Assembly (NCBI RefSeq): GCF_015354405.1
Contig: NZ_JADKYP010000031.1
Coordinates: forward strand, 19,176-83,175
Source of the DNA: Nocardia sp. BSTN01
GTDB taxonomy: Bacteria > Actinomycetota > Actinomycetes > Mycobacteriales > Mycobacteriaceae
Reading direction: 5' to 3'
DNA length: 64,000 nt
The notes under the pieces were generated by a model. That model had not been told where the DNA came from, did no database searches, and saw only the letters and a program-made list of their open reading frames with translations. Made by a program: the position numbers and the translations under genes. Shown in pieces: positions 8,314 to 47,560 of this stretch. Position 1 is the stretch's first letter. Each line of letters starts with the position of its first letter.

Positions 8314-9329
8314 ACCGGCTGGGTGGTGTGCGCGCCGCGGACCTTCACCTCACCGCGCGGGCCGCCATAACGCACCCGGGCGGCATGGCGCTCGATATCG
8401 CGCACGTCGAGGCTGCGCGCCGCCTCCGCCAGCGAGGCGAACAGCAGCAGACCCTCGTAGCAGGATTCGCCGATGTTGTTCAGCGCCGGAGCGAAGGTGC
8501 CGTACCGGGCGGTGTAGCGGCTGCCGAATTCCATCGCCTCGGGCGATACCACGCTCTCGAAATAGCCTGAGGCGGTGAACAATCCGCGGGTGCTGTCCGG
8601 GCCGCCGGCGTACAGGACGTCCTCGCCGATCATCATGCTCAGCCGCAGCCGGTCCTCGTCGAGGCCCGCGCGGGCGAAGGCGCGATTGAACGCCGCGCAG
8701 TCGGCGCCGACCATCAGCAGCAGCACCCCTTGGGCGGACGAGCGGCGAATCAGGTCGAGGGCCGGCCCGAAGGCGCGGCTGCCGAGCGGGACGAATGTCT
8801 CGCCGACGATGTCGATATCCCCGAATGCCGCCGCCTCGCGGGTGACCCGGGCGGTTTCGCGTGGCCACACGTAATCGTTGCCGACGATGCACCACCGGCG
8901 GATGCCTTGTTCCGCGCGCAGCCAGCGCAACGCCGGAAAAAGTTGATGATCGGGCGTCTCGCCGACCATGTACACGCCGTCGGAATTCTCGCCGCCCTCG
9001 TAGAACGTGGTGTAGACGTACGGCACCCGTCCGGCCGTGCGGGGCGTCAGCACCCGGCGGGCGTTGGACAGATGCCAGCCCACCACGCCGTCGACGGCGC
9101 CGGTGCCGATCATACGATCGATGCGCTCGGCCAGCAGCGGCAGCGGCGCGCCCGCGTCGACCGTGTGCAATCGCACCGGCCGGTCCAGGATTCCGCCCGC
9201 GCGATTGATGTCCTCCGCCGCCAGCGCGGCGCACGCCTCACAGGACGGGCCGAACAGGCCCGCCGGTCCGCTACCGGGCACCACCAGCGCGATATCGACG
9301 GTGTCGCGCCCGCCGCGGGAGTTCGACAT
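8253..9329 (-). CDS. Cytoplasmic AmiC/UrtA-like periplasmic-binding-protein-fold sensor
   Basis: About 358 residues with the type I periplasmic-binding fold of the branched-chain amino acid/urea/amide family. Visible marks are VVPGSGPAGLFGPSCEACAA near the N-terminus, AEDINRAGGILDRPVRL, VDGVVGWHLSNAR and YVYTTFYEGGENSDGVYMVG. No signal peptide or lipobox precedes the domain, so it is probably cytoplasmic like AmiC or NasS. No permease, ATPase or AmiR-type antiterminator lies nearby. ATG 9329 is chosen because GAGG precedes it; an ATG at 9389 is an alternative. The small ligand is probably an amide or urea-like molecule, but this is inference. Confidence 0.7.
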   Translation of the reverse strand: MSNSRGGRDTVDIALVVPGSGPAGLFGPSCEACAALAAEDINRAGGILDRPVRLHTVDAGAPLPLLAERIDRMIGTGAVDGVVGWHLSNARRVLTPRTAGRVPYVYTTFYEGGENSDGVYMVGETPDHQLFPALRWLRAEQGIRRWCIVGNDYVWPRETARVTREAAAFGDIDIVGETFVPLGSRAFGPALDLIRRSSAQGVLLLMVGADCAAFNRAFARAGLDEDRLRLSMMIGEDVLYAGGPDSTRGLFTASGYFESVVSPEAMEFGSRYTARYGTFAPALNNIGESCYEGLLLFASLAEAARSLDVRDIERHAARVRYGGPRGEVKVRGAHTTQPVYLADADGVDFAVVSELRRA

Positions 9330-38299: not shown

Positions 38300-38701
38300 T
38301 CACAACACCGCCTGGGTCTGGGTGACCTTGCCGACGAGTTTGCCGGCGTCGTCGTGGATTTCGGTTTCCACCACGATGAAACTGCGCCCCGCGTGCAGCG
38401 GCGTCGACGAGGCCACCGCGTAACCGGACCGTACCGCCCGCAGGAAGTTCGTCTTCGACTCCACGGTCGTGGTGCCCTGTTTGCCCTCCGGCAGATTCAG
38501 GTACGCGCATACCGCGCCGGTGGCGTCGGCCAGCGACATCAGCACCCCGCCGTGCAGGACACCGCCGAGCGTGCACAGGCTCTCGTCCCAGGCGAGCCGG
38601 CTGCGCACCAGCTTCGGCCCGTGCTCGAGCACCTCGACGCCCAGTTTCTCGGTGAACGGCATGGTGCTGTGGAACAGCCGGGTTCCTTCGGTATCGATCA
38701 T
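38300..38701 (-). CDS. PaaI-type hotdog thioesterase
   Basis: 133 residues of the hotdog fold. The PaaI-family motif LGGVLHGGVLMSLADATG lies near 46-63, and KTNFLRAVRSGY near 84. It should hydrolyse an acyl-CoA or acyl-carrier thioester. Its ATG overlaps the stop of the MmpL gene (ATGA), making it the last gene of the nlt-type cluster. It may recycle CoA or release an acyl intermediate. That cluster role is inference from position. Confidence 0.85.
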   Translation of the reverse strand: MIDTEGTRLFHSTMPFTEKLGVEVLEHGPKLVRSRLAWDESLCTLGGVLHGGVLMSLADATGAVCAYLNLPEGKQGTTTVESKTNFLRAVRSGYAVASSTPLHAGRSFIVVETEIHDDAGKLVGKVTQTQAVL

Positions 38702-40842
38702 GATGTCGAGCTTGCCCGGACGCGTGCGCGAGGTCCATTACCTTCGGGGTAACGATCGCGGGCGGGGCGCATCGGCCACCAGTTCAGCGGGCCCATCAAT
38801 CGCACCAGCGCCGGCACCAGCAGCATTCGCACCAGCGTGGCGTCGATGATCAGCGCCAGGATCATGCCGAGGCCGAGGAATCGCATCGGGGTCAGCGGGG
38901 ACAGCGTGAAGGCGCCGGTGATGAACACCAGAAGCGTTGCGGCCGAGGTGATCACGCGGGCGGTGCGGACCGTGCCGGTGCGGATCGCGGACACGGTGTC
39001 GCAACCGGCGTGGCGGGCCTCGACCATGCGCGAGAGCAGGAAGACCTCGTAGTCGGTGGAGAGCCCGAAGACGACGGCGATGATCAGCACCATCATCCCC
39101 GCCGAGAGCGGTCCCACGCTCACGTGCAGCAGATCGGCCAGATTGCCCCGGCAGAAGATCCAGGTCAGGATGCCGAAGGTCGCCGCGAGGCTGAGGAAGG
39201 CCAGCAGTACCGCCTTGACCGGCAGCACCGCCGAGCGGAACGCCGCGCCGAGCAGGATCAGCGTGGCGAGCACCATCACCGCGATCATCAGCGGCATCCG
39301 GGAGGTGATGGCCGCGACGCTGTCCACGGTGGCCGCGGTGTCGCCCCCGACCTGGATCTTCACACCATCGGGTGGGTCGAATTCCCGTATGCGCGTCACG
39401 GTTTCGGCAGCGCCGGGGGAGCGGTCGGGGTCGTCCAGCGCCGCGTGCAGTACGACCGCGTCGTCCACCGTGGCGAGTCGCTGCACGTCGTGCACACCCG
39501 GGATCGTGCCGAGCGCGCGGATCGCGGCGGCGGTGGGCCGGGAGTCGGGTGGTGCGCCGTCACCGCGCAGCAGAACCGTCGCGCCGCTGCCGGCCTCCGG
39601 GAAACGGGTGGCGAGTTCGTCGACGCCCGCGCGCACGGCATTGCCCGCCGGAAGCGCCGTGTGGTCGACATCGCCGAGCCGGACGCCCAGCACCGGTGTG
39701 GCCAGCACGAGCAGCAGCCCGCCTACGGTGACGGCCACGAGACCGGGCCGGCGCACCACCGCGTCGACCACCCGGCCCCACCATCGCTCGGCGCGCCGCT
39801 GTCCGCGGTCGAAGGCGTCGCGGCGCCAACTCCAGGCGCCGACGCGGTGACCGAGCAGCGCGAGCGCGGCCGGCAGGACGGTCAGCGACAGCCCCGCGGC
39901 CAGCAGCACCGCCGCGATGGCCCCGAAGCCCAGCGACCGCAAAACGGCCTGCGGGAAGACGAGCGTTCCGGCGAAGGCGCAGGCCAGCAGCAGCGCAGAG
40001 AATCCGACGGTGCGACCGGCGGTGGCCAGGGTGCGGGTCACCGCCTCGGAGACCGCGGCCCCCGCGGCGAGTTCCTCCCGGAATCGGGTGACCACGAACA
40101 ACCCGTAGTCGATGGCCAGGCCCAGCCCCAGCAGCGAGGCCACGTTCACGGCGAACACACTCACCTCGGTGGCATGTGCGATCGTTCCGACCGCACCCAG
40201 TGAGCCCACGACGGCGAGCACACCCACCAGCAGCGGCAGGCCGGCGGCGACCACCCCGCCGAATACCAGCACCAGAATCGCCGCGGTGATCGGCAGCGAG
40301 ATGGATTCGGCGAGAACCAGATCGTGCCGGGACTGGCGGTCGATCTCGTCGGCGAGTGCGCTGTAGCCGGTGAAGCGCACCGAGACGCCGGGAACGGTCA
40401 GCGCCGCGGCGATGTCGTGGTAGGCGGCGATGCGCTGATTGTCGTCGCCGGCGGCGAACACCACGGCCAGCCCCTGCCGGCCGTCCGCCGACCGCAGGAA
40501 GCCCTGGCGCGGTGGGGCGTTGTTCCAATAGGTCTGCACCGGCTGGGCCAGCAGTGCCGGATCGATGTGGTCCACCGCCTGCTGGACGCGCGGGCCGAGT
40601 GCGGTGAGGTCCTGTCCGTCGGGCGCGGTGTAGATCGCGATCACATCGGGGTTCTGCCGGCCCAGATGCGCGGTGACCACCCGGTCGACGAGCGCGGATT
40701 CGCTGCCCGGATCGGCGAATCCGGCCGCGCTCACTCGCTGCTGGACGTCGGCGCCGAACAGTCCGCATACGATCGCGACACCGATGGCCGCCAGTAGTAC
40801 CAGTGTCGGGCGGGTACCGACGAGCCGCGCCCAGCGTGTCAT
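38698..40842 (-). CDS. MmpL/RND-type lipid transporter
   Basis: 714 residues with the MMPL plan: one helix near the N-terminus, a periplasmic loop (about 40-170), five helices (about 180-340), a second helix and loop (about 370-500), and five more helices. LASLLGLGLAIDYGLFVVTRF-type sequence (near 240) and VVFGLSTDYEVFLLSRMVE (near 595) carry the conserved Asp-Tyr pairs of the proton relay. It should export a lipid using the proton gradient. It starts inside the stop of the acyltransferase gene and belongs to the nlt-type cluster, so the beta-lactone product is its likely cargo. It is shorter than typical mycobacterial MmpL proteins. Confidence 0.87.
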   Translation of the reverse strand: MTRWARLVGTRPTLVLLAAIGVAIVCGLFGADVQQRVSAAGFADPGSESALVDRVVTAHLGRQNPDVIAIYTAPDGQDLTALGPRVQQAVDHIDPALLAQPVQTYWNNAPPRQGFLRSADGRQGLAVVFAAGDDNQRIAAYHDIAAALTVPGVSVRFTGYSALADEIDRQSRHDLVLAESISLPITAAILVLVFGGVVAAGLPLLVGVLAVVGSLGAVGTIAHATEVSVFAVNVASLLGLGLAIDYGLFVVTRFREELAAGAAVSEAVTRTLATAGRTVGFSALLLACAFAGTLVFPQAVLRSLGFGAIAAVLLAAGLSLTVLPAALALLGHRVGAWSWRRDAFDRGQRRAERWWGRVVDAVVRRPGLVAVTVGGLLLVLATPVLGVRLGDVDHTALPAGNAVRAGVDELATRFPEAGSGATVLLRGDGAPPDSRPTAAAIRALGTIPGVHDVQRLATVDDAVVLHAALDDPDRSPGAAETVTRIREFDPPDGVKIQVGGDTAATVDSVAAITSRMPLMIAVMVLATLILLGAAFRSAVLPVKAVLLAFLSLAATFGILTWIFCRGNLADLLHVSVGPLSAGMMVLIIAVVFGLSTDYEVFLLSRMVEARHAGCDTVSAIRTGTVRTARVITSAATLLVFITGAFTLSPLTPMRFLGLGMILALIIDATLVRMLLVPALVRLMGPLNWWPMRPARDRYPEGNGPRARVRASSTS

Positions 40843-42032
40843 GCGAGTACCGAATCCGGCTGCGGTAGTTCGCTTTCCAAGGTATCCGCGATGCGGTCCA
40901 GCAGCGCTTCGAGCCGATCCTCGATACCGTGGCCGTTGCGCGCGGAGACCGTCAGCTCGGTGCGGCCGCCGGCCTCGACCATCGCGAACAGCAGCGGCAT
41001 CGCGACGCTGTGCTGCGGCAGCACCCGCACCGACGTGGGCGACCAGCCGGGCACCGCCAGTTCGCCGAGATCGAAGCGGCCCATGTGCGAGACCGTCGCC
41101 GAGGCGAGGTTGCGTCCGAAGCGGGCGCCGAGCGCGTTGGTGGTGCGCAGAATGATGCGGCCGACTGCATGTGGAGCGTTGGCGATCGCGCTGGCGGCCA
41201 GCTGGTTGAGTTCCGTGCGTTCCCGCAGACCCGCGCGCATGTGTTCGCGCACCTGCCGCCAATCCTGGCCGGGACGGATGTCGAGGAACAGCGGCAACGC
41301 CAGATTCGCCGTCGACCGCAGCTGTGGGTCGTGGCGGCGCAGATCGACCGGCACCATGATCCGCTGCGTAGTGCCCGCGGCATCGGCCAGCAGTGCCGAC
41401 ACCCGCGCCACCGCACCGGGACCGGTGGCCGCGATACTGCGGTGCCGCAGCAGATGCCGGGGGCTGCCCACCTCCTGACGGCCGTGGCCGACCGCCGCGC
41501 GGAAGCGGGGAATCATCGCGGTGGGACGTCCGGGTGCGCCGAGGCGCCGCACCAGTTCCCGGTCGGCGACCGGGTCGCGAAGTTCCTCCGGCTGTTCACC
41601 GCGTAGCGCGGCGAGGACGTTGCGGGTCCACAGCACCATGCCCATCCCGTCCATGACGCCGTGGAACACCCGGAAGATCACGGTGACCGGGTCGCCGGTC
41701 AGCAGCAGCACCTCACAGGTGGTCTCCGGGGTCGGGCCGATCGCCGACGCGAGGACCGGATCCGCCTCGAGGCGGGCGTAGTTCACGACGTGACCGGGAA
41801 GCTCGCGCACGGCGGGCGGCACGCCGGTGTCCACCCAGTATGTGCCCTCGCGCCGCAGCCGCGCGCCCGGGCAGGCGGCGGCCGCGACCGCGACAGCCCG
41901 GCGCAACCGCTCCGCGTCGAGGGTTCCGGTTCCCGGAATCGCCAGTTGCATCAGAAACGGCGGCGCCATATCCCGCATGGGAAAATACATGCGCTCGGTG
42001 GGCGAGATCCGCCGCCGGAAGACGGTACTCAT
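40839..42032 (-). CDS. PapA/WS-DGAT-like acyltransferase with HxxxD motif
   Basis: 397 residues of the condensation-domain-like acyltransferase superfamily. The catalytic HxxxD is present as FHGVMDGMG near 141. A later segment SHMGRFDLGEL near 340 matches the second conserved region. Relatives (PapA proteins, wax-ester synthases) form esters between an activated acyl group and an alcohol. ATG 42032 follows AGGAG at six bases. It overlaps the MmpL start by four bases and lies 20 bases after nltD. It could esterify a hydroxyl on the beta-lactone product or a partner lipid. Confidence 0.75.
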   Translation of the reverse strand: MSTVFRRRISPTERMYFPMRDMAPPFLMQLAIPGTGTLDAERLRRAVAVAAAACPGARLRREGTYWVDTGVPPAVRELPGHVVNYARLEADPVLASAIGPTPETTCEVLLLTGDPVTVIFRVFHGVMDGMGMVLWTRNVLAALRGEQPEELRDPVADRELVRRLGAPGRPTAMIPRFRAAVGHGRQEVGSPRHLLRHRSIAATGPGAVARVSALLADAAGTTQRIMVPVDLRRHDPQLRSTANLALPLFLDIRPGQDWRQVREHMRAGLRERTELNQLAASAIANAPHAVGRIILRTTNALGARFGRNLASATVSHMGRFDLGELAVPGWSPTSVRVLPQHSVAMPLLFAMVEAGGRTELTVSARNGHGIEDRLEALLDRIADTLESELPQPDSVLA

Positions 42033-42052
42033 GATCGGCTCCTGACTGTGCG

Positions 42053-43093
42053 TTACCGCAGATCGCGGGTGAGTTGCTCGATGCCGCCCTCGGATTCGAG
42101 CCACGACAGGAACCCGGCCAGGCCCTGTTCGCGGTCGACGATCGGCGCGTAACCGAAATCCCGTGCCGCCGCGCCGGTGTCGTAGGTCGCGGTGCGGGTC
42201 AGCAACGCGACCACATAGCGCGACAGCGGTGGCGACCAGCGCCGCGCGATCGCCGGTACGCGCCAGACGGTTTCGAGCACCGAGACGGCGACCGCCAGCA
42301 CCCGCGGATCGGGCCGCCGGCTGGGCGCCGGGTAGCCGAGCCCGCACGCCACCTCGGCGAGGAAGGCCCACACGTCGGTCTGCTCCGCGTCGGCGACGAA
42401 ATAGGCCTTGCCACCGACCCGGTCGGTGCCGGCGGCGCCCAGGCAGGCGTGCACGATGTTGTCGACATGGCACAGCGACGCCCGGACCGAGCGGCCGAAC
42501 GACAGATCGGGCAGGCGCCCCTGCGCGGTCCGTCCCAGCAGGCGCACGATCGGCCCGGAGCGGTCGCCGGCTCCCCAGATCGCGCGCGGCCGCAGCGCGC
42601 AGGTGGTGAAACCCGCGGTGTCGGCGGCCAAGACGGCGCGCTCGGCGGCGGCCTTGGTCTCGGAGTAGAAGTTCAGATAGTGGCGCGGATACGGCACCGA
42701 TTCGTCGATGTCGATCTGATCGCCGCCGTCGCGATCCATCAGCGCGCTCGGACTCGAGATGAACACGAAACGCGTCGCTCCCGCGGCGCGGGCCGCGCGC
42801 AGCAGGACTTCGGTGGCGCGCAGGTTCTCGGCGCGAAACTGCGCGCGGGTGCCGCGCTCGTCGACGCGGGCGGCGCTGTGGAACACGACATCGACTCCGG
42901 CGCAGGCACTTTCGAGCGAGCTTTCATCGGTGAGGTCGCCGAAGGCGACCCGCACACCGTCGAGATCGGGCAGATCACCGAGGTTGCTGGTGCGCCGCGC
43001 GAGCACGGTCACCTCGTGGCCGCCCTCGCGTACCAGGCGGCGGACCAGCGCGCCGCCGAGAAATCCGGATGCGCCCGTGACGAGCGCCTTCAC
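42053..43093 (-). CDS. nltD: NltD/OleD-like 2-alkyl-3-oxoalkanoate reductase
   Basis: 346 residues of the extended SDR (epimerase/3-beta-HSD) type. TGASGFLGGALVRRL lies at about 6-20, ISSPSA near 113 and catalytic YSETK near 139. OleD-type enzymes reduce the beta-keto acid made by OleA to a beta-hydroxy acid. The gene follows nltC and the small membrane protein, as expected for a beta-lactone pathway. GTG 43093 overlaps the stop of the small gene. Symbol assigned by homology and context with the nocardiolactone cluster. Confidence 0.8.
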   Translation of the reverse strand: MKALVTGASGFLGGALVRRLVREGGHEVTVLARRTSNLGDLPDLDGVRVAFGDLTDESSLESACAGVDVVFHSAARVDERGTRAQFRAENLRATEVLLRAARAAGATRFVFISSPSALMDRDGGDQIDIDESVPYPRHYLNFYSETKAAAERAVLAADTAGFTTCALRPRAIWGAGDRSGPIVRLLGRTAQGRLPDLSFGRSVRASLCHVDNIVHACLGAAGTDRVGGKAYFVADAEQTDVWAFLAEVACGLGYPAPSRRPDPRVLAVAVSVLETVWRVPAIARRWSPPLSRYVVALLTRTATYDTGAAARDFGYAPIVDREQGLAGFLSWLESEGGIEQLTRDLR

Positions 43094-43377
43094 CGTTGCT
43101 TCTCCTCGAAAGACGCCGTGCTACCGGCTGTTTCGGTACGCCACCAGGTGAGACCGAACAGCTGCGTCATGACGGCGGTGTACAGGCGGGACCGGCCGCT
43201 GCCTCGTGCGGCGCGCAACGCGACCGGAATCTGGGCGGCGTGCACACCGATGCTGAGCATCGCGTCGATCCACCACAGGGCTCGCAGCCAGCGGCGGCCG
43301 GAGTGCCGGATTGCCGGACCGGCCAGCAGAAACAACCAACCGGCAATCGGAATACTGCGTAGTGCGACAACTTTCAC
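43090..43377 (-). CDS. Small membrane protein between nltC and nltD
   Basis: 95 residues. Two hydrophobic stretches are visible (SIPIAGWLFLLAGP and LWWIDAMLSIGVHAAQIPVA), with basic segments between and an end TQLFGLTWWRTE. The GTG start overlaps the nltC stop (GTGA), and its own stop overlaps the nltD GTG (GTGA), so it is locked into the pathway at both ends. No catalytic motif or family was recognised. It may anchor the soluble enzymes to the membrane or present substrate; this is inference. Confidence 0.7.
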   Translation of the reverse strand: MKVVALRSIPIAGWLFLLAGPAIRHSGRRWLRALWWIDAMLSIGVHAAQIPVALRAARGSGRSRLYTAVMTQLFGLTWWRTETAGSTASFEEKQR

Positions 43378-45047
43378 CGTCGCACCGCCTTCGCGGTCTG
43401 CCGGGCCGCCCATACCGCGAGCTGTTCGCGCCCGATCTTGGCGTTGTGCCGGATGTCGACCGGGAAGTTCGGATGGAACAGGAACTCCGAGATCTTCGTG
43501 GTGAGCTCGAATTCCGCGCCACGCGCACGCAGCGCGGCGGTCACGTCGTCACGATCGGCGCCCGCGCCCAGTTCCACACACAGCACGGGGCGCTGGGCTC
43601 CGGCCGGGCCCACCCCGACCAGCGCCGTGCGCGCCACACCGGCGACGGCGTTGAAGATCTGTTCGACCTGGACCGTGAACATCGGCCCGTCGGCGGTGCG
43701 TACCCGCTGAGATTTGCGCCCGCAGAACCAGATTCGTCCCTGATCGTCGATCCGTGCCAGGTCGCCGGTGCGATGCCAGACGGTCTCGCCGTCGATGATC
43801 TTGCCCGTCGCGTTCGCCGCGGCGGGCCAGTAATAGCGGGTGCTCACATTCGGCCCCGCCACCACCAGTTCGCCGATGCCGCCGGTGGTCGCCACGTCGT
43901 TCTCCCGGGCCTGGGCGTCCGCCCAGGTAGGCAGCGGGTCGTCGGTGATCGCCACGACGCGCGCCCGCACCCGGTCGGCGGGGCGGCCGATGCAGGTGCC
44001 CGCGCCGGCGCGGGCGCGTTCGGACAGGCCGTCCAGCAGTTCACGCGATTCGATCGTCGACATCGGCAGCGCCTCGGTGGACCCGTATCCGGCGTAGACC
44101 AGCACATCCTCGTCGAGCACCGCGCGCAGGCCGGCGATACACCAGTCCGGGACCGGTGCGCCCCCGGAGTAGATACTGCGCAGCGTCGGTAGCCGGGTGC
44201 CGGTCTGTTCCAGGTGGCGCAGCAGCGGGATGAGCGCCGCGGGAGAGGCGAACATGGTGCGTACCCCGAATCTGCCGATGGCGTCGGCCACGTGCGCCGG
44301 ATCGGTCGAACCCACCTTGCTGGGGATCAGCGGCGGCAGGACGCACTGGGAGCCGAGCAGCAGATCCAGGATGCCGACCAGCGGCAGCGTGATCAGCGAG
44401 GTCTGCGGCGGTACGTGGCCGCGCGCGGCGTGGACCTGCTCGACCATGGCCGACAGATTGCCGTGGGTCATCTCCACGGCCTTGGCGGGTCCGGTGCTCC
44501 CGGTGGTGAAGGCGATCATCAGCGGGTCGTCGTCGGGCGCCGGAGTGCGCTCCGGCGCCGTGCCGGACGGGCGGCGGCCCCAGCTGTCGAAGGTCGCTCC
44601 GCCCCAGAACCAGCGCCGCCCGACCGTGACCGCGACCCGCACCCCGCGGAAGTAGCGGCGGAACAGCACTCGCGCCGCATGCGCCTGCGGAATGCCGATG
44701 AACGCCTCGGCGTCGGCCGCCCGCAGGCACCGCAGCATCCGGCGCAGGCCCATGCCCGGATCGATGACCACCGGCACGGCACCGATCTTCAACAGGCCCA
44801 GCATGATCGCGTACAGCTCCGGCCCGGGCAGCACCAGCACGATGGTGCGGGTTCCGCTGCCCACGCCCGCGGCGGTGAGCCGCTCACCGACCGCGTCGGA
44901 CCAGCGATCCAGGTCGGCGTAACTCAGCCGCCGATAGTGCGGCGTGGGCGTGGGTCCGGCGTCGGCGAAATACACCGCGGTGCGGTCCGGTTCGGCGGCG
45001 GCGACCACGCGGAACCGGTCGACCGCGCGCCAGTAGGTACCGCTCAC
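43374..45047 (-). CDS. nltC: NltC/OleC-like beta-lactone synthetase
   Basis: 557 residues of the AMP-forming (ANL) superfamily. The phosphate-binding motif is IAFTTGSTGPAKAVEMTH near 190. YGSTEALP lies near 340 and the hinge motif VWHRTGDLARI near 445. OleC-type enzymes convert a beta-hydroxy acid to a beta-lactone with ATP rather than making an acyl-CoA. The neighbours NltA/B and NltD support that assignment over an ordinary ligase. The GTG start overlaps the nltB stop. Near the C-terminus DIRHNAKIGREQLAVWA holds a conserved lysine. Confidence 0.82.
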   Translation of the reverse strand: MSGTYWRAVDRFRVVAAAEPDRTAVYFADAGPTPTPHYRRLSYADLDRWSDAVGERLTAAGVGSGTRTIVLVLPGPELYAIMLGLLKIGAVPVVIDPGMGLRRMLRCLRAADAEAFIGIPQAHAARVLFRRYFRGVRVAVTVGRRWFWGGATFDSWGRRPSGTAPERTPAPDDDPLMIAFTTGSTGPAKAVEMTHGNLSAMVEQVHAARGHVPPQTSLITLPLVGILDLLLGSQCVLPPLIPSKVGSTDPAHVADAIGRFGVRTMFASPAALIPLLRHLEQTGTRLPTLRSIYSGGAPVPDWCIAGLRAVLDEDVLVYAGYGSTEALPMSTIESRELLDGLSERARAGAGTCIGRPADRVRARVVAITDDPLPTWADAQARENDVATTGGIGELVVAGPNVSTRYYWPAAANATGKIIDGETVWHRTGDLARIDDQGRIWFCGRKSQRVRTADGPMFTVQVEQIFNAVAGVARTALVGVGPAGAQRPVLCVELGAGADRDDVTAALRARGAEFELTTKISEFLFHPNFPVDIRHNAKIGREQLAVWAARQTAKAVRR

Positions 45048-45949
45048 GCCGCCGCACCGGCGGCGACCGGCAGGCGGTACACCGCGGCCGCCGCCGACGG
45101 TCCCGCGCCCGCCGCGACGAACAGCACGGTGTCGAAGCCGACGAGCGAATCTTCTTCCACCGCACGGTGATAGGCCAGCGGCAGCGAGGCGGTGTGCGGA
45201 TCGCCGGCGGACAGATCGGGGGTGCGGACCGCGCTCATACCGAGGGTGTCCGCCAGCAACCGCGGGAACTTCGGGGTGGGCGTGGACGCGATGAGAACCG
45301 TTGCGGCGGGATCGATGTCGTCGGCGTCCAGGGCGCGCCGACCGGCGTCGGCCGCGATCTCGAGCAGCCGATCCTCGAATCCGGGTTCGCGTTCCACCGT
45401 CATCAGTCGGCGTCCGGCCGTACCCATCGTGGTGACGTCGACATACGACTGCACCGCGGGGGAGCCCGAACCCGCGACGGTGTGCACGCGGCCGAAGCCG
45501 ACCGGCTCGTCGGTGTGCTCGAGCAGCAGCGCGGCACCGGCGGTGGCATAGGGGAATTCGTCGTCGGCGGCCGATCGGGCCAGCGACGGATGGGTGTCTC
45601 CGGAGACGATCAGGACATGGCCGGACCCGGCGGTCTCGAGAATCGACTGGGCGACCTGGACCGCGTTGAGCACACCGGTGGCGCCGTTCATCAGGTCGAA
45701 GGAGAACGAGCGCGGATCGCCGAACCGGTAGTCCAGTCCGATCCCCGCCTCCTTCTGGATCAGCGCCGACACCGCCGGTTCCACGGTGTTGGAGTCGCGG
45801 AAGATGCCCGCGTTGATGAGCACGCCGACCTGCTCCGGCGCCACACCGGCGCGTTCGAGGCTCCGGCGCGCGGCCCGGCCACTGTGTTCGACGATGCTGA
45901 ACGTGTCGCCCTCGCGACTGATTCCGGTGGATGTGATGGCAACGCCCAT
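45044..45949 (-). CDS. nltB: NltB-like OleA paralogue lacking the catalytic cysteine
   Basis: 301 residues of the thiolase/KAS III fold. At the active-site position the sequence is DLMNGATGVLNA, where the cysteine of the NACAG motif is missing, so it cannot do the acyl-transfer step itself. Glu57 (SNTVEPAV) lies where the partner subunits of two-subunit OleA systems, such as LstB of lipstatin, supply a catalytic base. It probably forms a heterodimer with the product of the next upstream gene. ATG 45949 lies ten bases after that gene's stop. The A/B lettering follows the nocardiolactone set and is not certain. Confidence 0.78.
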   Translation of the reverse strand: MGVAITSTGISREGDTFSIVEHSGRAARRSLERAGVAPEQVGVLINAGIFRDSNTVEPAVSALIQKEAGIGLDYRFGDPRSFSFDLMNGATGVLNAVQVAQSILETAGSGHVLIVSGDTHPSLARSAADDEFPYATAGAALLLEHTDEPVGFGRVHTVAGSGSPAVQSYVDVTTMGTAGRRLMTVEREPGFEDRLLEIAADAGRRALDADDIDPAATVLIASTPTPKFPRLLADTLGMSAVRTPDLSAGDPHTASLPLAYHRAVEEDSLVGFDTVLFVAAGAGPSAAAAVYRLPVAAGAAA

Positions 45950-45959
45950 GACCAGTACC

Positions 45960-47009
45960 TCAGACCTTCAGAGACGAAATCGTGGTGGACAGGAAGCCGC
46001 CGACCACACCGGAGGCGGCCGGAACCATCAGCAGTTTCGAGCCGGCCGGGATCTCTCCGCGGCTCAGATGGTCGTGCAGCACGATGAAATGCGAAGTGCT
46101 GGAAGTGTTCCCGTATTCGGTCAGCACATTGAGGTCGGGCGGCATCGGTGCGCCGAATTCCCGTTCGGCGATGGCGTTCATGTACGGGATCGCCGCCGCG
46201 CCGAACTGATGGTGGATGACGAAGTCGAAGTTCTCCTCGGCGAATGTGGTGCCGCGCTTGTCGTAGAACATGCGCTGGGTGTCGGTCCACAGCAGGAAAC
46301 GCGCTTCGTTGTGCATCTTGCGGTTGTCGGTGTAGAGCGCGACGCCCTGGCTTTTGTCACTGGGCATGCCCAGGCACAGGTGGGAGAACTCCGAGGCGGT
46401 GACCAGTTCGATGTAGTCGATGCGGTCGGCCTCGTCGACGGAGCGGTCGAGCACCACCGCGGCCGCGGAATCTCCCACGGTGAGCGACGCGAATTGCAGA
46501 TCGTATTTGTCGGAAATTTCGCGCACTGCGGTATCGGCGATGGGAGTAATGGCCTCGCCGCTCACCACGATGCCGTTGCGCACCATTCCGGAGCGAATCA
46601 TGCGATCGAGAATGTAGGTTCCGCTGAGCATTCCCGCGCAGGCGTTGGAAAGGTCGAAGGTTATCGCGTTCTCCGCACCGATCCGTCGGGCCAGAGCCGA
46701 GGCGAACGACGGCTCCATATATATCTTGTCGGCGTCCTTACTGCGGGTGATGGAGGTGGAGATGACCACCTCTATCTCTGATCCGGAGTACTGTGACCTG
46801 GATAAACACTCGTCCAGCGCCTTGCCGGCCAGGACGAACGAGTCCTCGTAGGATTCCGGGCGGGTATCGTGAACGCGGCGTTCGCGCACGCCTGTGATCT
46901 TTTCGAGATCGAAGGCGGGCGGTACGGCGAGGCGCGATATCAATTCCTCGGTGGTGACCCTTTTTTCGGGTAGATATGCGCCGATCGCTTCGAAACGAGA
47001 ATGCGGCAC
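45960..47009 (-). CDS. nltA: NltA-like OleA condensing enzyme (thiolase fold)
   Basis: 349 residues of the thiolase/KAS III fold with a full catalytic set: Cys124 (LSNACAGMLSG), His267 (FVIHHQFG; His266 is adjacent) and Asn301 (TEYGNTSS). It should join two long acyl chains head to head in a non-decarboxylative Claisen condensation, giving a 2-alkyl-3-oxo acid. First gene of an eight-gene unit with nltB, nltC, nltD and tailoring/export genes. GTG 47009 has AGGAGG upstream. No OleB-type alpha/beta hydrolase is present, which argues for lactone rather than olefin as product. Confidence 0.82.
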   Translation of the reverse strand: MPHSRFEAIGAYLPEKRVTTEELISRLAVPPAFDLEKITGVRERRVHDTRPESYEDSFVLAGKALDECLSRSQYSGSEIEVVISTSITRSKDADKIYMEPSFASALARRIGAENAITFDLSNACAGMLSGTYILDRMIRSGMVRNGIVVSGEAITPIADTAVREISDKYDLQFASLTVGDSAAAVVLDRSVDEADRIDYIELVTASEFSHLCLGMPSDKSQGVALYTDNRKMHNEARFLLWTDTQRMFYDKRGTTFAEENFDFVIHHQFGAAAIPYMNAIAEREFGAPMPPDLNVLTEYGNTSSTSHFIVLHDHLSRGEIPAGSKLLMVPAASGVVGGFLSTTISSLKV

Positions 47010-47275
47010 GCCGCCTCCTGAATTGGCATGACGAATGCTTGCGGAATTTGTTCGTGACGTGATGCTACCCGAGAGTAACTAGCGCATTCTTGATCCGCAT
47101 CTCGACGCTTCGGCGGAGTGGGTGCGCGGACGATGTATTTGTGACAGCAAGTCGCGGCAAGTAGTAACTATTCGGCTATCGATAGCTATCGCCTCTACGG
47201 CGGCACATTGCCGGGCGCGGGTGTGCACATCGAGCACTCCGCTAACTCGCAGAGTGTCGGATTATTGGTGAAACT
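47010..47275 (-). promoter_or_regulatory. Upstream region of the nlt-type cluster
   Basis: This non-coding stretch is richer in A and T than its surroundings. It contains the 12-base perfect palindrome GCTATCGATAGC (47175-47186) and two near copies of AGTAACTA (about 47073-47080 and 47163-47170). These are candidate operator sites for the cluster starting at 47009. No clear -35/-10 pair was fixed. Confidence 0.4.
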
Positions 47276-47560
47276 TCATATCGGCCGGGGCCATCGATTG
47301 TGAGAGACCTCACCGAGTGCGGGGCTGCCCGACCCGGGTCGGCCCAGCCGTGCCACGACCGCGCGCGGCAGCCGCGGCCACACGAGGTTCAGTGCGCGCC
47401 AAGGCCATTGCGGCACACAGGCGCGCACCGGCTCGGCCTCGATCGCGGCGACCATCGCGGCCACACCGCGCTCGAGCGGAACGACCAGCCGGGCATCGTC
47501 GGCGCGCGCGGACATCTCGGTGGCGATGAAACCCGGCTGCACGGTGGCATTCCACCCTAG
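47276..47560 (-). pseudogene. C-terminal remnant of a short-chain dehydrogenase gene
   Basis: A frame ending at TGA 47276-47278 begins ALGWNATVQPGFIATEMSAR, the segment that follows the catalytic YxxxK in SDRs. About 80 residues then resemble an SDR C-terminus. The Rossmann domain, NNAG and YxxxK regions are all absent; only 20 bases separate its left part from the galK stop. It is a truncated leftover rather than a working gene, although a start at an internal codon cannot be excluded. Confidence 0.5.

Follow-up and report, generated by a model that had tools for sequence, protein, structure and literature searches.

We analysed a 64,000-nucleotide stretch of the Nocardia sp. BSTN01 genome (contig NZ_JADKYP010000031.1, positions 19,176 to 83,175; hereafter the window), which contains an eight-gene operon whose genes we call A, B, C, X, D, P, M and T: A to D resemble the nltABCD genes for the beta-lactone nocardiolactone, X encodes a small putative membrane protein, P a lone condensation-domain protein, M an MmpL transporter and T a thioesterase. 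The reading that we favour, and to which we give about an even chance, is that this nocardiolactone-type operon descended from a lipstatin-type operon, with P as an acyltransferase and M as the exporter. The nocardiolactone core is already known, and the new part is the proposed derivation of P from a lipstatin-type operon.

Read from the window sequence, all eight genes lie on the minus strand (47009 to 38300) in the order A-B-C-X-D-P-M-T, with 4-base overlaps at five of the seven junctions (B/C, C/X, X/D, P/M and M/T) and gaps of 10 bases at A/B and 20 bases at D/P, just as a first-pass annotation of this DNA had described. Chance neighbourhood is ruled out by synteny, as the same order recurs across the genus. 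The genome (completeness 99.65%, 206 contigs) appears to be that of a Nocardia of the N. nova group, because the best named matches of its NltC include Nocardia aobensis, cerradoensis, kruczakiae and mikamii (95-96% identity).

Gene order across Nocardia and its relatives

Gene order was compared at the best 80 of 93 NltC loci, with per-gene counts taken only from loci with enough sequence. Fifty-nine loci had the layout of the window (type 1; 56 from Nocardia and 3 from Rhodococcus), 16 had another arrangement (type 2), and 5 were distant ole-type clusters. Within type 1, A and B were found in 54/54 loci, X in 57/58, D in 58/58, P in 56/56, M in 52/54, and T in 10/52; these counts include Rhodococcus locus L056, whose P is fused, and the misses for X and M came from L055 (neither gene) and L054 (no M). 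Two N. brasiliensis loci (L026 and L029) likewise read A-B-C-X-D-P-M. The median P/M junction of 53 loci was a 4-base overlap, and the genes beyond M varied by clade.

At the genome level, P was detected in 103 of 151 Nocardia genomes (102 of the 148 good ones) and NltC, at an E value of 1e-100, in 113 of 151, with 12 and 9 candidates scored per genome, respectively. Nearly all lone P copies in the genus (102/105) had an nltC match 1078-1579 bases upstream of them on the same strand; the exceptions were two copies whose nltC match is on another contig (G079 and G130) and an extra unlinked copy (G085). Beyond the genus, where four candidates were scored per genome, P occurred in at least 13 of 397 genomes of the order and at least 7 of 394 of the class (own genus included in both). 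With P in 56/56 loci, M in 52/54, and 102/105 lone P copies near nltC, P and M genuinely belong to the operon. T is an optional addition in some clades and was dropped as a core gene. The first-pass proposal that an acyltransferase/MmpL/thioesterase trio is linked to nltABCD thus holds for P and M and fails for T: the trio is really a duo.

The type 2 clusters, all from Nocardia (L017, L019, L020, L025, L032, L036, L041-L044, L046, L047, L062, L067, L069 and L073), represent a second beta-lactone-type cluster in which A and B point away from C-(X)-D. Annotation of two of them (L017 and L047) showed a LuxR/TPR regulator beyond B and an alpha/beta hydrolase after D; the hydrolase was rejected as OleB, as it matched an OleB candidate at only 26% over 116 residues. 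Three NltC-like copies without P downstream (G087:C228, G114:C1 and G007:C6) each contained one in-frame stop and are possibly broken genes or sequence errors. The NltC matches of L063-L066 were split or late-starting, which suggests an insertion in the first third of NltC in this clade.

P and its fused relatives

P had no Pfam match up to E 10, and a profile of P retrieved nothing from PDB sequences at E 0.1; a single-sequence PDB search gave three matches, all with E above 0.05, including an amide synthase (1l5a, E 0.26). The AlphaFold model of P (predicted local distance difference test [pLDDT] score of 90) matched condensation domains and related acyltransferases, with AzeD of Pseudomonas aeruginosa (8s6l) as the best structural match at 19% sequence identity. 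Compared to the HHxxxDG motif of PapA acyltransferases, the P motif FHGVMDG keeps the second His, the Asp and the Gly, and has Phe for the first His; among 56 aligned lone P proteins it read FHGVMDGMG in 55 and FHGVMDGVG in one. The ratio of nonsynonymous to synonymous substitution rates (dN/dS) of P was 0.11-0.18, similar to those of M and C, and P is under purifying selection; the low dN/dS and the fixed motif rule out a decaying relic. Given this selection and the retained catalytic-type histidine, P most likely still works. Of the earlier description of P as a PapA-like acyltransferase, the fold is retained and the lineage probably is not: P is probably better described as a lone condensation domain of the non-ribosomal peptide synthetase (NRPS) kind, because the relatives found for it belong to the condensation domains of NRPS modules, both lipstatin-type and other (in a tree without PapA sequences).

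We found 16 fused relatives, with the P-like part at the N-terminus of a condensation-adenylation-carrier protein; eight of them adjoin a formyltransferase and six stand beside C and D. In Rhodococcus qingshengii (L056), a 988-residue protein consists of a P-like part (49%) followed by adenylation (TIGR01733, 393.7 bits, above cut-off) and carrier domains, and downstream of it come a formyltransferase-type protein and then M; the fused protein plus formyltransferase is what we take to be the LstE-LstF arrangement of lipstatin. Two further lipstatin-like clusters have the P-like domain at the start of E, namely L158 (A-B-C-X-D-E-F, with no M within the examined stretch) and L159 (A-B-C-X-D-E up to the contig end), and a locus from another genus of the family (L147) reads E-F-A-B-C-X-D. 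In L056 and L147, lipstatin-type sets (A-B-C-X-D with fused E and F) occur together with an MmpL gene, which in L147 lies only partly inside the stretch, at its edge. Fused P without a formyltransferase match was found in L148-L151 (order) and L160, with C and D but no X alongside in L148 and L149, and no other cluster gene in L150, L151 and L160. Within the genus, 7 of 151 Nocardia genomes had a second, fused P (open frame 1027-1104, all with an adenylation-carrier part), of which five adjoin a formyltransferase and none is near nltABCD in the stretches examined.

In a midpoint-rooted tree of 43 P proteins (including 23 of the 55 lone P from the loci and that of the window, and no PapA), the 24 lone Nocardia P formed one clade with support of 100/99 within the fused proteins, and those of Nocardia, Rhodococcus, L147 and L158/L159 branched around it. 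Some forks were weak (83/76, 87/78 and 88/51), and three lone proteins of other genera fell outside the Nocardia clade, with L152 among the fused proteins and L153 and L161 at the root. For Nocardia, this tree is most simply read as showing that the adenylation and carrier domains, together with the formyltransferase between D and M, were lost once; the alternative would be a wider superfamily with a lone ancestor. In the window, P ends at residue 397, short of the adenylation and carrier domains that follow condensation in a lipstatin-type LstE, and is the single P match of the genome at E 1e-10. No LstF orthologue was found in the genome, where the search returned four weak hits, the strongest with 31 bits over 85 residues.

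The unlinked, lipstatin-like condensation-adenylation-carrier genes of Nocardia (L127-L132; five of six adjoin a formyltransferase) were accompanied by further observations. Type 2 clusters were present in 6 of the 7 genomes with a fused P and in 15 of the 144 without one (p 2e-5 by Fisher's test, uncorrected for kinship), and the unlinked genes and the type 2 cluster may make a joint lipstatin-like product. Divergent from the fused gene of L131 is a 2-oxoglutarate-Fe(II) oxygenase gene (8484-9320), a possible lipid-chain hydroxylase.

Core enzymes and the other operon genes

Judged from domain and residue matches, the first five genes are of the known nocardiolactone type, i.e., nltABCD plus the small open reading frame X (Table 1). 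A and B both match acyl carrier protein (ACP) synthase III domains of Pfam, with B just above the cut-off for one such domain and just below it for the other. Cys124, His267 and Asn301 of A correspond to LstA C128, H271 and N305, and B has alanine (Ala90) where A has the cysteine and retains Glu57. According to a 2025 review (PMC12141560), the lipstatin proteins LstA and LstB form a heterodimer whose activity depends on LstA C128 and H271 and on LstB E60, and whose solubility depends on N305. With this residue pattern, A and B resemble an LstAB-type pair. The AMP-binding protein C scored 591 bits on PRK09274 (above its cut-off) and 505 bits on the olefin beta-lactone synthetase model from Xanthomonas (below the strict cut-off of 900), and D scored 206 bits on the OleD model (a Shewanella model, cut-off 580); an OleC-type synthetase and an OleD-type reductase share one operon, both under strict equivalog cut-offs. 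A second NltC was not found in the genome (next match 79 bits).

Table 1. Features of the operon and its upstream region (window positions)
Feature	Position	Strand	Basis or remarks
A, nltA-like, catalytic KAS-III/OleA-type subunit	45960..47009	-	Cys124, His267, Asn301; domain match
B, nltB-like, partner subunit	45044..45949	-	Ala90 at the place of the catalytic Cys, Glu57 kept
C, nltC-like beta-lactone synthetase, OleC/LstC-type ANL enzyme	43374..45047	-	Domain and model matches
X, small putative membrane protein of 95 residues	43090..43377	-	Hydrophobic segments; homologous to a C-terminal extension of the synthetase elsewhere
D, nltD-like 2-alkyl-3-oxoalkanoate reductase, OleD/LstD type	42053..43093	-	Model matches
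P, lone condensation-domain protein (probable)	40839..42032	-	His124 in FHGVMDG; predicted structure and relatives
M, MmpL transporter, MmpL3-related branch	38698..40842	-	Asp-Tyr pairs at 245 and 597
T, hotdog (4HBT) thioesterase	38300..38701	-	Domain match; after M in some Nocardia clades only
nltA leader, likely promoter region	47010..47110	-	Alignment of 8 sequences; strongly conserved in the N. nova group

The nocardiolactone-type core recognised in the first-pass annotation (an OleA-type pair, an OleC-type and an OleD-type enzyme) was thus borne out by domain matches, residues and gene order, and so was the absence of OleB. Searched with one OleB candidate (L080, picked by its position in an ole-type cluster), the genome gave no OleB orthologue: its three best-scoring matches had 31-35% identity, the best (105 bits) having 32% over most of the length, and shorter partial matches reached 42%, whereas two OleB candidates from ole-type clusters of different phyla share 60%.

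X has a hydrophobic start with one clear segment and a weaker second one, is predicted to be helical with moderate confidence (pLDDT 75.9), and had no significant Pfam match. In the lipstatin-like clusters L158 and L159, X forms the C-terminus of the beta-lactone synthetase (653 and 634 residues, respectively), and in the window it would tether NltC to the membrane.

M carries an MMPL domain, in agreement with its earlier designation as an MmpL-type transporter, and scored 406 bits with MmpL3 structures, compared with ~107 bits for MmpL4/5. On the MmpL3 equivalog model, M scored 481.7 bits against a cut-off of 1400, whereas two MmpL paralogues of the genome scored far higher, one (L082) with 958.8 bits over its matched 697 residues and the other with 782. 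In a tree, 13 nlt M (12 locus proteins and that of the window) grouped together, apart from 6 of the genome's 11 other matches (87/92, below the 95/80 mark). M as MmpL3 itself was rejected on the model cut-off and the separate tree group. The presence of M in 52/54 type 1 loci versus none in the stretch of lipstatin-like L158, the one M-less locus with sequence on both sides, fits export towards the mycomembrane. T is a hotdog thioesterase (TIGR00369, above cut-off) but not the PaaI equivalog, on whose model it scored 34.0 bits against a cut-off of 118.9.

The leader of ~100 bases before nltA includes CTAGTTACTCTC-GGTAGCATCA, which the distant L010 nearly shares, and is likely a promoter or regulator site. 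A palindrome upstream of nltA (GCTATCGATAGC) was discarded as an operator, as it occurs in the window and in 0/15 other loci tested. Between galK and nltA, an 88-residue stretch (47276-47542) resembles by eye the end of a short-chain dehydrogenase (PGFIATEM); it is matched over its full 88 residues at 86-88% in L003, L005 and L006, where the distance to galK is ~580 bases longer, and it may be the remnant of a longer gene.

Proposed pathway and comparison with known systems

Lipstatin biosynthesis uses LstE to esterify the skeleton with an amino acid and LstF to formylate that amino acid. In the pathway that we propose, NltA-NltB would condense two fatty acyl-CoAs in head-to-head fashion, NltD would reduce the ketone, and NltC, with X as its probable membrane anchor, would close the beta-lactone. 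The adenylation domain, carrier and formyltransferase of the ancestral lipstatin-type operon would be gone, leaving the condensation domain P, which would acylate the beta-lactone or its precursor from a donor that does not arrive on a carrier belonging to P, and M would export the lipid towards the mycomembrane. Acyl transfer by P before MmpL export is our best guess, and we infer the activity and donor of P, the cargo of M, and the roles of X and T. The first-pass claim that the operon decorates its lactone is unproved; the title of the isolation paper (a reference in PMC7413640) describes nocardiolactone as a dialkyl-substituted beta-lactone and mentions no acyl group. A further idea, which we regard as rather unlikely, is that nocardiolactone is not the end product: the operon would make an activated beta-lactone that P either O-acylates from acyl-CoA or opens onto an alcohol to give a mycolate-like ester, and the MmpL protein would place this so far unseen lipid in the mycomembrane. 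On that view, the loss of two domains and one gene turned the lipstatin pathway from an amino-acid ester to a cell-envelope lipid.

Other roles for P were weighed against acyl transfer. One rival makes P a condensation-domain protein that transfers nothing, either dehydratase-like (as the name of AzeD has it) or of another kind, and that alters the chain ahead of ring closure or following it; nocardiolactone would then be final and M would export it unchanged. We hold this doubtful, as the nearest sequence relatives of P are condensation-adenylation-carrier modules, several of them beside formyltransferases and probably ester- or amide-forming, and P is distant from AzeD in sequence. A non-catalytic P that serves to carry or dock the hydrophobic lactone and pass it to M would agree with the common 4-base P/M overlap and with the loss of the adenylation and carrier domains, which removes the expected donor; the motif His and Asp kept in 56/56 lone P and the low dN/dS argue against it, and we consider such a role quite improbable.

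Least probable to us, with only a slight chance, is that the beta-lactone is an activated intermediate that P opens with an alcohol into 2-alkyl-3-hydroxyacyl (mycolate-like) esters for export by M. MmpL3 is the exporter of trehalose monomycolate, M is nearer to MmpL3 than to MmpL4/5, and by established chemistry an opened 2-alkyl beta-lactone is the mycolic acid motif. However, M matches five further MmpLs of its genome at 38-40%, so that its MmpL3-likeness says little on cargo, and no acceptor is known.

The analysis marks out three conserved genes (X, P and M) in a pathway whose P is widespread in Nocardia, and makes the function of nocardiolactone a knock-out question, namely whether the isolated compound is product or intermediate. 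The link between Nocardia clusters and nocardiolactone has been published: PMC7413640, citing Robinson and coworkers, gives 36 homologous clusters, six of which antiSMASH first assigned as lipstatin-type. That paper does not mention MmpL, PMC7064751 mentions neither MmpL, acyltransferase nor condensation domain, and a literature search for beta-lactone gene clusters with MmpL returned papers that are, by title, drug reviews. Roles for X, P and M were not found in the literature searched, which excluded the original nlt (Robinson 2020) and lst (Bai 2014) papers.

Among the closest known systems is the nlt cluster of Nocardia: the two N. brasiliensis loci share the A-B-C-X-D-P-M order at 60-76% protein identity to the window, to which the window and its close relatives add T. 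The OleABCD olefin pathway has the same A, C and D chemistry, whereas the window has no OleB orthologue that we could find and its A has a separate partner, B. Mycobacterial lipid pathways pair PapA acyltransferases with MmpL exporters, and the P-M pair differs from these in that P has neither a Pfam nor a significant PDB sequence match and its relatives found are NRPS condensation domains. AzeD, whose role is taken from its entry name only, resembles P in structure and differs in sequence. The lipstatin operon of Streptomyces toxytricini follows the same A, B, C and D logic, and the lipstatin-like L158 and L159 extend the likeness to A-B-C-X-D-E with a P-like first domain in E; unlike these, the window has a P without adenylation or carrier domains, no detected LstF orthologue, an MmpL gene, and X as a gene separate from C. 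Lipstatin is the parent of a marketed anti-obesity drug, and the proposed descent would connect it by a simple evolutionary route to nocardiolactone, the other known beta-lactone natural product.

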